Source: Blastococcus haudaquaticus
Lineage (GTDB): Bacteria; Actinomycetota; Actinomycetes; Mycobacteriales; Geodermatophilaceae
Length of the DNA stretch: 64,000 nt
Assembly: GCF_900230285.1 (NCBI RefSeq)
Contig: NZ_OCNK01000005.1
Span: 1 to 64,000 of the forward strand
Reading direction: 5' to 3'
Below, piece after piece: positions 3,231-6,720 of this stretch. The notes under the pieces were generated by a model. That model had not been told where the DNA came from. It did not search any database and saw nothing but the letters and a program-made list of their open reading frames with translations. The position numbers and the translations under genes were made by a program. Position 1 is the stretch's first letter; each line of letters opens with the position of its first letter.

Positions 3231-3854
3231 TCAGGCGGGAGCGTCGCCCGCGGCGGTGCCGGGGGTCGCGTCGGCCACGGCGCCGGCGTCGACGATGGTC
3301 TGCGCCAGAGCCTTCATCGACGTCCGCTGGTTCATGGCCGTCCGCTGGATCCACCGGAAGGCCTCCGCCTCGGTGATCCCCTGCTCGGACATGAGCAGAC
3401 CCTTCGCCTTCTCGACGACCTTGCGCGTCTCCAGCCGCTCCTCGAGGGTGCGGACCTCGCCGTCCAGCGCCGTCATCTCCGAGAACCGTGCGCGCGCCAC
3501 CTCGATGGCGGGGACCAGGTCGTTCTTGGAGAAGGGCTTCACCAGGTAGGCCATCGCACCGGCGTCGCGCGCCCGCTCGACGAGCTCCCGCTGGCTGAAC
3601 GCGGTGAGCACGATGACCGGCGCGACCCGGGCCTGGGCGATCTGCTCGGCCGCCGACAGGCCGTCCAGCACGGGCATCTGGATGTCGAGGATGACCAGGT
3701 CGGGCCGCAGCTCGAGGGCCCGGTCCACGGCCTGCTGCCCGTCCCCGACCTCGGCGACGACGGAGTAGCCCTCTTCCTCCAACATCTCCTTGAGGTCGAG
3801 GCGGATGAGTGCCTCGTCCTCGGCGATGATGACCCGGATCGTCTCGCTGCTCAC
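3231..3854 (-). CDS. pdtaR: ANTAR-domain response regulator PdtaR
   Basis: Cytoplasmic two-component response regulator of 207 residues that binds RNA rather than DNA. Residues 1-120 form a receiver domain with acidic pair Glu12-Asp13, phospho-acceptor Asp57 (VILDIQMP) and the conserved Lys in YLVKPF. Residues about 125-190 form the ANTAR domain (EKAKGLLMSEQGITEAEAFR), which in this family binds paired hexaloop hairpins and prevents transcription termination. In mycobacteria the partner kinase is PdtaS; no kinase gene is present here. The start is GTG at 3854, with TAGGCT 6 nt upstream, suggesting a leaderless mRNA. The last 18 residues are Ala/Thr/Gly-rich and probably disordered. Next to pyk and livK as in other actinobacteria. 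Confidence 0.95.
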   Translation of the reverse strand: MSSETIRVIIAEDEALIRLDLKEMLEEEGYSVVAEVGDGQQAVDRALELRPDLVILDIQMPVLDGLSAAEQIAQARVAPVIVLTAFSQRELVERARDAGAMAYLVKPFSKNDLVPAIEVARARFSEMTALDGEVRTLEERLETRKVVEKAKGLLMSEQGITEAEAFRWIQRTAMNQRTSMKALAQTIVDAGAVADATPGTAAGDAPA

Positions 3855-3860
3855 GGATGG

Positions 3861-3866
3861 AGCCTA
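3861..3866 (-). promoter_or_regulatory. -10 element TAGGCT, leaderless-type, pdtaR
   Basis: TAGGCT on the minus strand ends 6 nt before the GTG start of pdtaR. Confidence 0.55.
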
Positions 3867-3928
3867 GCCACGTCAGGTGTCGACGGCGTCACCGATAGGC
3901 TTCCCTGGCCCGCCGGGCATCCCGGCAC

Positions 3929-4002
3929 GCCCCCGTACCCCAATCGGCAGAGGGAGCGGATTCAAAACCCGCGCAGTGTGCGTTCGAGTCGCACCGGGGG
4001 CA
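3929..4002 (+). tRNA. tRNA with CAA anticodon (Leu by codon), short variable loop
   Basis: Hand-folded cloverleaf of 74 nt. Acceptor stem gcccccg/cgggggc pairs 7 of 7, discriminator A at 4002, no encoded CCA. D stem ccc/ggg (3938-3940 with 3952-3954) with GG in the loop. Anticodon stem 3956-3960 with 3968-3972 (four pairs and one A-C), loop ttcaaaa, anticodon CAA at 3963-3965. T stem gtgcg/cgcac with loop ttcgagt. The variable region is only 5 nt (3973-3977), so this is a class I shape, whereas bacterial tRNA-Leu normally has a long variable arm. The codon read would be UUG (Leu); A73 fits leucine. Charging identity cannot be proved from sequence. Confidence 0.88.
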
Positions 4003-4015
4003 CTCTGTCGAATCG

Positions 4016-4032
4016 CCGATCCTTCGGATCGG
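4016..4032 (+). terminator. Short hairpin after the tRNA
   Basis: ccgatcc-ttc-ggatcgg, 7-bp arms with a 3-nt loop, starts 14 nt after the tRNA 3' end. No T-run follows. Likely 3' end signal for the tRNA transcript. Confidence 0.45.
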
Positions 4033-4205
4033 CACCGCGGCCAGGTGCCGTCCCCTCCCTGCGCTGAGCTCATCTCCGGTGTTCGTCGGGGACCCTTCGG
4101 GCCCCGCTCCTCGCACCGTCTCGCAGAGCGGCTCCTGTCCCAGCGTCCTCGTCCCCTGTCCGACGCTCCTCGCGGACCCCTCCGGGGCCCACTCGTCGTG
4201 CCGAA

Positions 4206-4211
4206 TACCCT
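4206..4211 (+). promoter_or_regulatory. -10 element TACCCT, leaderless-type, PLP decarboxylase
   Basis: TACCCT ends 6 nt before the GTG at 4218 and supports that start over the internal ATG at 4239. Confidence 0.55.
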
Positions 4212-4217
4212 CGGCCC

Positions 4218-5855
4218 GTGACCGAGCCTGCGCCGCACATGACTCCCGAGCAGTTCCGGCAGCACGGCCACGAGGTCGTCGACTGGATCGCCGACTACTG
4301 GTCGCGGATCGGCGAGTTCCCGGTCCGCTCCCAGGTCTCCCCCGGCGACGTGCGCGCCACCCTCCCAACCCAGGCCCCCGAGCAGGGCGAGCCGTTCTCC
4401 GCCGTCCTCGCCGACCTGGAGCGCGTCGTCCTCCCGGGCACGACGCACTGGCAGCACCCAGGCTTCTTCGGCTACTTCCCCGCGAACACCTCGGGTCCGT
4501 CCGTGCTGGGCGACCTGGTGTCCGCCGGCCTCGGCGTCCAGGGCATGTCGTGGGTGACCAGCCCCGCCGCCACCGAGCTCGAGCAGCACGTCATGGACTG
4601 GTTCGCCGACCTCCTGGGACTGCCCGCGTCCTTCCGGTCCACCGGCACCGGTGGCGGCGTGGTCCAGGACTCCAGCTCCGGCGCCAACCTGGTCGCCCTC
4701 CTGGCCGCGCTCCACCGCGCGAGCACCGGCGCCACGGTCCGCCACGGCGTCGACCCCGACCGCGCCACCGTGTACGTCTCCGCCGAGACGCACTCCTCCA
4801 TGGAGAAGGCCGTGCGGATCGCCGGTCTCGGCAGCGACGCCGTCCGCATCGTGGAGGTCGACGGCGACCTGGCCATGCGGCCGGCCGCCCTGGCCGCCCG
4901 GCTCGAGCGGGACGTCGCCCGTGGCTTCACCCCGGTGCTCGTCTGCGCCACGGTCGGGACCACCTCGACGACGGCGATCGACCCGCTCGCCGAGCTCGGT
5001 CCGATCTGCCAGAAGTACGGCGTCTGGCTGCACGTCGACGCCGCGTACGCCGGCGTCAGCGGCATCGTCCCGGAGCTGCGCGAGCTGCAGGCCGGCGTCG
5101 AATGGGCCGACAGCTACACGACCGACGCCCACAAGTGGCTGCTCACCGGCTTCGACGCGACGCTCTTCTGGGTCGCCGACCGCGCGGCTCTCACGGGTGC
5201 GCTCGCGATCCTCCCGGAGTACCTCCGCAACGCCGCCACCGACGCCGGGGCAGTCGTGGACTTCCGCGACTGGCAGGTCCCGCTGGGCCGCCGCTTCCGC
5301 GCCCTCAAGCTGTGGTTCGTGCTCCGCTGGTACGGCGCCGAGGGCCTCCGGGCGCACATCCGCTCGCACGTCGCCATGGCCCAGCAGCTGGCCGCCTGGG
5401 CCGACGCGGACGAGCGCTTCGACGTGGTCGCCCCGCACCCGCTCGCGCTGGTCTGCCTCCGGCCGCGCTGGAGCGACGAGGTCGACGCCGACGTCGCCAC
5501 CATGACCCTGCTGGAACGGCTCAACGACGGCGGCGAGGTGTTCCTGACCCACACCAACGTCGGTGGCCGGGCGGTGCTGCGGGTCGCCATCGGCTCACCG
5601 GCGACCACTCCCGCCCACGTGGAGCGGATGTGGGCCCTCCTGCGCGAGAACCACGAGTTCCTCGCCACCGACTTCGCCGCCGCGGCCGCGGAGCTGGAGG
5701 CCGAGCGGGAAGCCCAGCGCACCGCCGCGCGCGAGGCCGCGGAGCGAACCATCAGCGAGGCGGAGGCCGAGACGGCCGCCGCCGAGCCCGCCGACGTCGA
5801 ACCCGCCGACGTCGAACCCGCCGAGGAGTCGTTCAGTCCTTCAGCGACCGGATGA
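4218..5855 (+). CDS. Pyridoxal-phosphate-dependent aromatic-L-amino-acid decarboxylase family protein
   Basis: Group II PLP decarboxylase of 545 residues, predicted to decarboxylate an aromatic amino acid (tryptophan, tyrosine or DOPA) to its amine in the cytoplasm. The Schiff-base lysine is Lys306 in TTDAHKWLLTGFD. Other family marks are HWQHPGFFGYFPAN near residue 75, SWVTSPAATELE, GGGVVQDSSSGANL at the PLP phosphate site, and HVDAAYAG with the PLP-pyridine Asp. The core ends near residue 490; a tail rich in Ala and Glu follows, ending in a duplicated PADVE unit, and is probably a coiled or disordered extension. Start is GTG 4218 by the -10 spacing. It converges on tesB, whose stop overlaps its 3' end by 23 nt. 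Exact substrate cannot be told. Confidence 0.88.
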   Translation: MTEPAPHMTPEQFRQHGHEVVDWIADYWSRIGEFPVRSQVSPGDVRATLPTQAPEQGEPFSAVLADLERVVLPGTTHWQHPGFFGYFPANTSGPSVLGDLVSAGLGVQGMSWVTSPAATELEQHVMDWFADLLGLPASFRSTGTGGGVVQDSSSGANLVALLAALHRASTGATVRHGVDPDRATVYVSAETHSSMEKAVRIAGLGSDAVRIVEVDGDLAMRPAALAARLERDVARGFTPVLVCATVGTTSTTAIDPLAELGPICQKYGVWLHVDAAYAGVSGIVPELRELQAGVEWADSYTTDAHKWLLTGFDATLFWVADRAALTGALAILPEYLRNAATDAGAVVDFRDWQVPLGRRFRALKLWFVLRWYGAEGLRAHIRSHVAMAQQLAAWADADERFDVVAPHPLALVCLRPRWSDEVDADVATMTLLERLNDGGEVFLTHTNVGGRAVLRVAIGSPATTPAHVERMWALLRENHEFLATDFAAAAAELEAEREAQRTAAREAAERTISEAEAETAAAEPADVEPADVEPAEESFSPSATG

Positions 5856-6720
5856 GGCCCTCCTGGGCGACGGTGGCGACGTGCGTGCCGTCGGCCGCCC
5901 AGATCTGCCCGAAGCACAGCGCCCGCCCGTAGGAGGCCGCAGGACTGTCGGTCTCGTAGAGGAACCAGTCGTCGGCCCGCACCGGCTGGTGGAACCACAC
6001 AGCGTGGTCCAGGCTCGCGCCGATGAAGTCGGGCCACCCTCCCCCGAGGCGGGCGAAGCCCGCCGACAGGAGCGTCAGGTCGCTCACGAACGTCAGTGCG
6101 GCCGCGTGGACGGCGGACTCGTCGGGCAGCTCGCCGGCCACCCGGAGCCAGGTGCGGGTCTTCGTGTCCGGCGGCGACTTGGGCGGAGCCGCGAACGGGT
6201 CCTCGAGGAACCGCTGCTCCACGACCGACCCCATGGCGGCCATCCACGCCGCCTTGTCCCCGTGCCGGGCGACGATCTCGGCCGTCCCCGGCAGGGTCTG
6301 CGGCGCCGGTACGTCGGGCATGGGCAGGCAGTGCTCGGCGACCGCCTGCTCACCGGCGTGGAAGTCGGCGGTCAACGCGAAGATGGCGACGTCCTCGCCC
6401 TTGCGGTGCTGGCGGGCGACGACCCGCCGCGTCGTGAACGACCGGCCGTCACGGATCCGGTCGACCTCGTAGCGGATCTCCTCGAAGGGATCTCCGGGCC
6501 GGAGGAAGTACGAGTGCAGCGAGTGCACGGCGCGGTCGGCAGGCGCCGTGTGCTCCGCGGCCATCAGCGCCTGGCCGGCGACCTGACCGCCGAAGATCCG
6601 CTGCCGCTCCGTGCTCGGGGTCAGGCCGACGAAGACGTCCGTGTCGCGCTCCTCGAGGCCCAGCACGGACATGAGCGCCGCGGCCTGGCTCTCCCCCGCA
6701 CCGCCCCCGCGTGAGCTCAC
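5833..6720 (-). CDS. tesB: Acyl-CoA thioesterase II (TesB family)
   Basis: Cytoplasmic double-hotdog thioesterase that hydrolyses acyl-CoA to free acid and CoA. The first hotdog contains RIFGGQVAGQALMAA and HSLHSYFLRPGD; the second contains GASLDHAVWFHQPVRADDW and a C-terminal GLIRS, all typical of TesB. The GTG at 6720 overlaps the pyk stop by 4 nt (GTGA), suggesting translational coupling, and gives 295 residues; the ATG at 6672 (279 residues) is the alternative but has no well-spaced Shine-Dalgarno. The residues between the two starts align plausibly with the N-terminus of longer homologues. Co-transcribed with pyk. Physiological acyl chain unknown. Confidence 0.88.
   Translation of the reverse strand: MSSRGGGAGESQAAALMSVLGLEERDTDVFVGLTPSTERQRIFGGQVAGQALMAAEHTAPADRAVHSLHSYFLRPGDPFEEIRYEVDRIRDGRSFTTRRVVARQHRKGEDVAIFALTADFHAGEQAVAEHCLPMPDVPAPQTLPGTAEIVARHGDKAAWMAAMGSVVEQRFLEDPFAAPPKSPPDTKTRTWLRVAGELPDESAVHAAALTFVSDLTLLSAGFARLGGGWPDFIGASLDHAVWFHQPVRADDWFLYETDSPAASYGRALCFGQIWAADGTHVATVAQEGLIRSLKD

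Follow-up and report, generated by a model that had tools for sequence, protein, structure and literature searches.

A class I tRNA-Leu(CAA) gene beside pdtaR in Blastococcus haudaquaticus and its counterparts across Actinomycetes

Described leucine tRNAs and the Blastococcus gene

Leucine identity has been described for the class II tRNA-Leu of bacteria. In E. coli its determinants are A73, the A15-U48 Levitt pair, G18G19 and A20a, and U8-A14 is named as an Aquifex determinant, according to the accessible text of PMC9976931. The review also states that leucylation by E. coli LeuRS shows no correlation with either the variable arm's sequence or its folding, and that forms lacking both this arm and the anticodon arm are still active. 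Animal mitochondrial tRNA-Leu(UUR) has no long variable arm, and A73 and A14 are its main identity elements (PMC9976931, accessible text); however, it is organellar, has a floppy transcript and is served by its own LeuRS. For actinomycetes, one sentence in the accessible part of PMC6582537 mentions a short variable loop in a tRNA-Leu(UAG) from a tRNA cluster of M. mucogenicum, a cluster copy that was probably acquired by transfer and that lies next to a normal class II isoacceptor. Nematode nev-tRNAs also depart from the variable-arm class expected for their anticodon, but in the opposite direction, carrying a class II arm with class I anticodons while being charged with leucine (PMC4033280, in excerpt). 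Allo-tRNAs, with acceptor and T stems of 8/4 or 9/3 pairs, are another unusual kind of tRNA found by genome search (PMC7609411, in excerpt). In a search of open-licence literature we recognised no paper that treats a class I tRNA-Leu as part of the normal gene set of bacteria.

Here we describe such a gene in a stretch of 64,000 nucleotides from Blastococcus haudaquaticus (contig NZ_OCNK01000005.1, positions 1 to 64,000; hereafter the window). Its parts, and the gene next to it, are as follows.

3231-3854, minus strand: PdtaR-like response regulator, receiver plus ANTAR (PF00072 and PF03861), a recurrent neighbour of the tRNA-Leu(CAA) slot
3929-4002, plus strand: class I tRNA-Leu(CAA) gene, G1 to A73 (ARAGORN; RF00005, 46.6 bits; our family model R1, 97.8 bits, with the window copy in its training alignment)
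3938-3954, plus strand: D arm with C10-G25, C11-G24, C12-G23 and C13 x A22, loop A14 A15 U C G18 G19 C20 A20a G21 (alignments)
3955-3972, plus strand: A26 region and anticodon arm with an A31 x C39 mismatch (sequence, alignment counts)
3963-3965, plus strand: anticodon CAA, reading UUG (ARAGORN, anticodon at position 35)
3973-3977, plus strand: variable loop GCAGU, 5 nt (sequence, alignments)
4002, plus strand: discriminator A73 (sequence; invariant in 21/21 alignment rows)

ARAGORN called a tRNA-Leu(CAA) at 3929-4003, and Rfam RF00005 covers 3929-4002 over the whole model at 46.6 bits (gathering score 29); CCA is not encoded at the 3' end. The acceptor stem has 7 pairs and the T stem 5, unlike the 8/4 or 9/3 arrangement of allo-tRNAs, and the variable loop of 5 nt is of class I length (4-5 nt), below the roughly 10 nt or more of class II. 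The first-pass annotation had read a class I shape with a CAA anticodon and had named a long variable arm in a covariance model as the result that would overturn it; ARAGORN and RF00005 both uphold the shape, the latter matching its whole model with the 5-nt loop. A match to RsmV on the minus strand was set aside as chance (16.4 bits against a gathering score of 100).

Two features had been listed as oddities, the A31-C39 mismatch and the short D stem. Both are real. The anticodon stem has 4 pairs plus the A31 x C39 mismatch, and the D stem has 3 bp (10-25, 11-24 and 12-23) with a non-standard 13 x 22. However, the three class II leucine tRNAs of the same genome also lack a standard 13-22 pair, so the short D stem is a leucine-like trait rather than an oddity; the Cys, Ser and Tyr tRNAs of this genome lack the pair as well. 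U48 of the variable loop is the partner of A15, and G47-U48 is the same as the base of the genome's own class II leucine arms; G49 is likewise common to this tRNA and the three own class II leucine tRNAs.

We consider it very probable that the gene encodes a LeuRS-charged elongator tRNA used at UUG and that, with the identity core kept, either its variable arm was lost or a class I form took the place of the gene. We infer charging, expression and ribosomal use from the lines of evidence set out below.

The pdtaR slot, the leucine tRNA set and phage copies

RF00005 finds 47 tRNA places in the 4.51-Mb, 11-contig assembly of B. haudaquaticus. Five are leucine tRNAs by ARAGORN typing: the class II genes CAG, GAG and UAG, whose variable regions measure 15, 17 and 13 nt, and the class I genes UAA (C6:622640-622713) and CAA, at 5 nt each. 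A pattern search for class II tRNA-Leu(CAA/UAA) returned 0 matches in this genome, where a gene in a gap of the 11-contig assembly is possible. Unless one lies there, UUG and UUA both appear to be read by class I tRNAs. The proposal that the short gene is an extra, little-studied isoacceptor thus does not hold: no other tRNA-Leu(CAA) was found in the genome, its tRNA-Leu(UAA) likewise has the class I form, and other actinomycetes carry a class II CAA gene in the same slot (see below). Nor did the pattern search turn up the second, class II tRNA-Leu(CAA) for which the annotation had suggested looking. In contrast to the M. mucogenicum cluster copy, the class I genes here are the only isoacceptors found for UUA and UUG.

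Compared with bacterial class II tRNA-Leu, the window tRNA has the same A73, A14, A15-U48, G18G19 and A20a, the same lack of a standard 13-22 pair, the same single G47 before the Levitt U48 and the same codon box, but it has no variable stem-loop. The cores differ as well: the two own class I genes have A9, C12-G23 and A26 where the three own class II leucine genes have G9, G12-C23 and G26, and position 13 is C as opposed to G or U. Because the core differs at 9, 12-23, 13 and 26, the switch of class is, as judged from these genes, more than the cutting off of an arm. Unlike the organellar mitochondrial form, tRNAs of the window type are GC-rich cloverleaves found in bacteria and phages beside class II leucine tRNAs.

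PdtaR is a protein with a receiver and an ANTAR domain. The first-pass annotation placed short CAA tRNAs near pdtaR in other actinobacteria, and we found this adjacency at class I CAA loci: a pdtaR homologue lies on the fetched stretch with the class I tRNA-Leu(CAA) in 20/20 loci L001-L020 (own genome included), 7/8 of L071-L081 and 16/17 of L089-L105, and in 20/37 loci of the genome scan, many of which are cut near the gene; the own genome and G025 each figure in two of these groups. The same neighbour accompanies class II genes. A pdtaR-like gene stands beside the tRNA in 12/16 fetched class II CAA loci, in Nocardia, Arthrobacter, Microbacterium, Brachybacterium, Aeromicrobium, Nocardioides, Mobilicoccus, Herbiconiux, Gordonia and others; the class II CAA loci lacking one are two array copies, a Myxococcota locus and one from another bacterium. 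Two class I loci were fetched alongside, Kibdelosporangium with a pdtaR-like gene and Saccharothrix without. Because class I and class II CAA loci share this neighbour, the two kinds of gene occupy one slot.

Class I leucine genes reach beyond this slot. A species-collection scan gave at least 119 class I loci; among the matches listed, 112 are from Actinomycetota, 2 from Acidobacteriota, 1 each from Rokuibacteriota, Myxococcota and Chloroflexota, and 2 are unplaced, several of the loci outside Actinomycetota being metagenome assemblies or tRNA arrays. Chloroflexi bacterium AL-N1 has class I tRNA-Leu genes for CAG, GAG, UAA and CAA, all four within about 700 bases and probably forming a tRNA array. 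Viral contigs gave at least 120 matches to the same pattern; among the matches listed, the stretches of 80 have a GC content of 28 to 67%. Examples from phages are a UAA gene in cyanophage P-RSM6, a CAA gene in Streptomyces phage Francob and a UAG gene in Mycobacterium phage Finemlucis. The viral stretches also carry class I leucine tRNAs that read CUN codons, a group outside the pattern's selection; among their scored unique sequences the leucine identity set is present in 20/21 UAG, 4/4 GAG (2 unscored) and 2/2 CAG.

Could the window copy be a recent import from a phage or plasmid, an origin compatible with leucine function? Class I leucine genes are present in many phage contigs, and an integrase adjoins a Tsukamurella copy. 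In that record (T. tyrosinosolvens, NZ_LR134447.1, L071:3001-4280) a site-specific integrase gene lies directly past the tRNA-Leu(CAA), which may serve as an attachment site. However, the window copy sits in the pdtaR slot common to all of L001-L020, the own locus among them, and was therefore in all likelihood kept vertically here. We regard recent import as improbable.

Two irregular copies were observed. That of Mycobacterium riyadhense (NZ_OY970457.1, L072:3001-3078) is a class I Leu(CAA) with one extra A in the anticodon loop; ARAGORN types it as ambiguous Leu/Phe, and the pdtaR-like match beside it spans only 112 residues. At G014:C435:2785-2929 (L088), the 3' 43 bases of the tRNA are repeated, 98% identical, 28 bases past the intact gene, a partial repeat that looks as after an integration event.

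Leucine identity and the probable charging and use at UUG

What charges a leucine tRNA that has no long arm? G18 and G19 in the D loop are common to all five leucine tRNAs of this genome, and are widespread among tRNAs generally. The combination of A14, A15, U48, A20a and A73 occurs in 5/47 own tRNAs, and these are the five leucine tRNAs, both class I members included. The window tRNA has the leucine discriminator A73 at 4002 and an anticodon, CAA, within the leucine codon box. In the pattern-scan loci the full identity set is found in 30/31 scored unique CAA and 77/79 UAA sequences (one of each unscored), where the pattern itself fixes A20a and G47-U48 and the real test is of A14, A15 and A73 only.

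A single LeuRS passes the TIGR00396 cut-off, with two matches in one 994-residue frame. Seven weaker matches fall in three other frames, which we take to be putative sister synthetases; a second charging enzyme was accordingly rejected as a candidate. Because one LeuRS passes the cut-off and the identity set is kept, the charging enzyme is most likely this single LeuRS. The annotation had supposed that LeuRS depends on the long arm, which is at odds with the identity work reviewed in the accessible text of PMC9976931. Bacterial LeuRS would read the core and not the tip of the arm, and the arm would therefore be dispensable for charging.

The codon itself aligns with leucine. We compared 36 frames of the window, picked by homology, each with homologues from two to five relatives; at least one of the frames (6023-6472, plus strand) is probably a shadow frame. 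TTG makes up 28 of their 14,976 codons. Its aligned partners are leucine codons in 78/99 pairs (43 CTG, 22 CTC, 12 TTG and 1 CTT), the other 21/99 being G (7), F (6), R (3), I (2) and T, A and D (1 each). For comparison, the partner is leucine in 2903/3313 pairs for CTG and 38/64 for CTT; TTA occurs once in the 36 frames and in no aligned pair. Reassignment of UUG was rejected on the 78/99 leucine pairs. Given the rarity of UUG, the tRNA gene may see little use; through wobble, tRNA-Leu(UAA) may read this codon as well.

These data bear on the alternative that the gene is a tRNA for another or a non-canonical amino acid, with UUG reassigned or another synthetase at work. Most other amino acids normally have tRNAs of class I shape, and the nearest non-leucine tRNA of the genome by model R1, Lys(UUU), reaches 64.6 bits; against this stand the leucine pairs at UUG, the restriction of the leucine identity set to five leucine tRNAs of 47, and a slot that holds a class II tRNA-Leu(CAA) in other genera, and we give this alternative very little weight.

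The gene is also well preserved. Matches at E<=0.001 occur in 28 of the 31 genomes searched (own plus 30 relatives), and in 18, own included, the copy is identical over 74/74 bases, which agrees with the earlier expectation of a short CAA tRNA conserved in relatives. A family alignment was built from 21 class I leucine sequences found by DNA similarity (16 from genomes, 2 of them own, 4 from phage records and 1 from a Tsukamurella plasmid record). In it 98.1% of cells are paired, 17/20 pairs show two-sided change and the covariation score is 0.537, against a shuffled mean of 0.137 with 0/500 shuffles as high; the fold is no product of chance. The 10-25 pair of the D arm covaries as GC/CG/UA, and G47, U48, G49, A14, A15 and A73 are invariant in 21/21 rows. 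Positions 31-39 are unpaired in 8/21 rows. The A31 x C39 mismatch recurs among class I CAA genes and is rare among UAA genes: of the unique sequences scored from the genome scan, 12/31 CAA and 1/79 UAA have it, and of the viral ones 13/42 and 5/75.

The fold is thus retained in relatives, where its loss had been named as a sign of decay, and on the 74/74 identity in 18 genomes together with the covarying stems we rejected a decayed gene. A copy now decaying, or a tRNA mainly used outside translation, would fit the rarity of UUG and the finding of no sigma-70-like promoter or terminator in 3800-4220, itself weak evidence in a GC-rich actinomycete; yet the same identity and covariation, and the failure of ARAGORN typing and the class II pattern to find another Leu(CAA) in the genome, make it highly unlikely.

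Class I and class II across Actinomycetota

Two patterns, one for each class, were used to look for CAA and UAA genes; anticodons in the class and phylum samples were read by eye, and the sums match the tallies. Many genomes show neither class, from which it follows that the patterns miss genes, and chance-looking matches were excluded by eye (the only match of G298, the second of G391, the second of G439, G478 on C61, G123 on C30, G077 on C7 and C11, and G130 on C51).

Among 150 genomes sampled from the order, class I matches occur in 126, including 23/23 of the own family (21 of them twice), and class II matches in 33, including 0/23 of the family. The comparison of classes here is restricted to the class II holders, all of whose rows are among the matches listed. 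The 28 genomes with class II UAA include none with class I UAA; 15 have class I CAA and 13 no class I match. None of the 4 genomes with class II CAA has class I CAA, and 4/4 have class I UAA. In a class sample of 108 genomes, class I was found in 75 and class II in 39; in a phylum sample of 119, class I was found in 32 and class II in 86. A further set of 50 genomes was chosen for a class I match, from the at least 119 scan loci. By anticodon, the counts are:

Class sample, CAA: class I only 54, class II only 22, both 1, neither 31
Class sample, UAA: class I only 36, class II only 17, both 0, neither 55
Phylum sample, CAA: class I only 12, class II only 71, both 0, neither 36
Phylum sample, UAA: class I only 23, class II only 48, both 0, neither 48
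109 phylum-sample genomes outside the class: CAA, class I 6 and class II 68; UAA, class I 18 and class II 46
Chosen set, CAA: class I only 30, class II only 15, both 2, neither 3
Chosen set, UAA: class I only 43, class II only 3, both 1, neither 3

Class I predominates in the class sample and class II outside the class; a stricter CAA pattern matched in 17/246 genomes of the phylum. Class I tRNA-Leu thus characterises Actinomycetes rather than the phylum as a whole, and the cases elsewhere are scattered. The idea that class I is the older state was dropped, since class II prevails outside the class in the evenly drawn samples. Both classes for one anticodon in one genome are rare: 1/108 in the class sample (G537, for CAA), 0/119 in the phylum sample and 3/50 in the chosen set. 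The last are Saccharothrix luteola and Kibdelosporangium aridum for CAA, in which the class II copy lies among other tRNA genes (13 and 4 tRNAs, respectively, on the stretch), and a Rokubacteria assembly for UAA.

On a tree of PdtaR the class label needs at least 5 changes, 3 of them forced by the starred branches, against a shuffled mean of about 11. The tree has 59 rows (57 different; 47 class I and 12 class II, with the own genome and G025 in twice) and is an unrooted, quick-method tree of one short protein with long branches, whose rows are a chosen set rather than a fair sample, the deep ones coming from the class I pattern search. Read in this way, the class would have changed several times at the CAA slot. 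One row, from a 4.4-Mb record titled Sphaerisporangium cinnabarinum ATCC 31213 (L125), carries a PdtaR that is almost the same as the Cellulosimicrobium protein, and this genome may be mislabelled.

How might such a switch work? The variable arm would be lost, or the gene replaced by a class I form, with the leucine core of A73, A14, the trans-Levitt pair A15-U48, G18G19 and A20a retained and still no standard 13-22 pair. The cell's one LeuRS would charge the resulting class I tRNA, which would then serve UUG codons, and older switches of class may have come about through phage exchange. Beyond the window gene, we lean towards a broader reading, held with far less assurance: the variable-arm class of tRNA-Leu is switchable, and a re-tuned class I family (A9, C12-G23, C13 x A22 and a 5-nt loop ending in G47-U48), present across Actinomycetes, in phages and in a scattering of other bacteria, took the place of class II for the UUR codons several times and one anticodon at a time, in the case of CAA at the same pdtaR slot, leaving one LeuRS with two tRNA shapes.

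The components themselves are ordinary, a tRNA that LeuRS most likely charges. In the open-licence literature searched we saw no statement that the UUR leucine codons are commonly read by class I tRNA-Leu in Actinomycetes, and general statements in PMC9976931 and PMC4033280 run contrary to it. Many Actinomycetes break the long-arm rule for bacterial leucine tRNAs at two of the six leucine codons. They offer a natural experiment on what a bacterial LeuRS needs, in which the same enzyme has matched substrates of class I and class II, and a caution for annotation tools that assign tRNA identity by arm length. The class of a tRNA is not fixed per amino acid.
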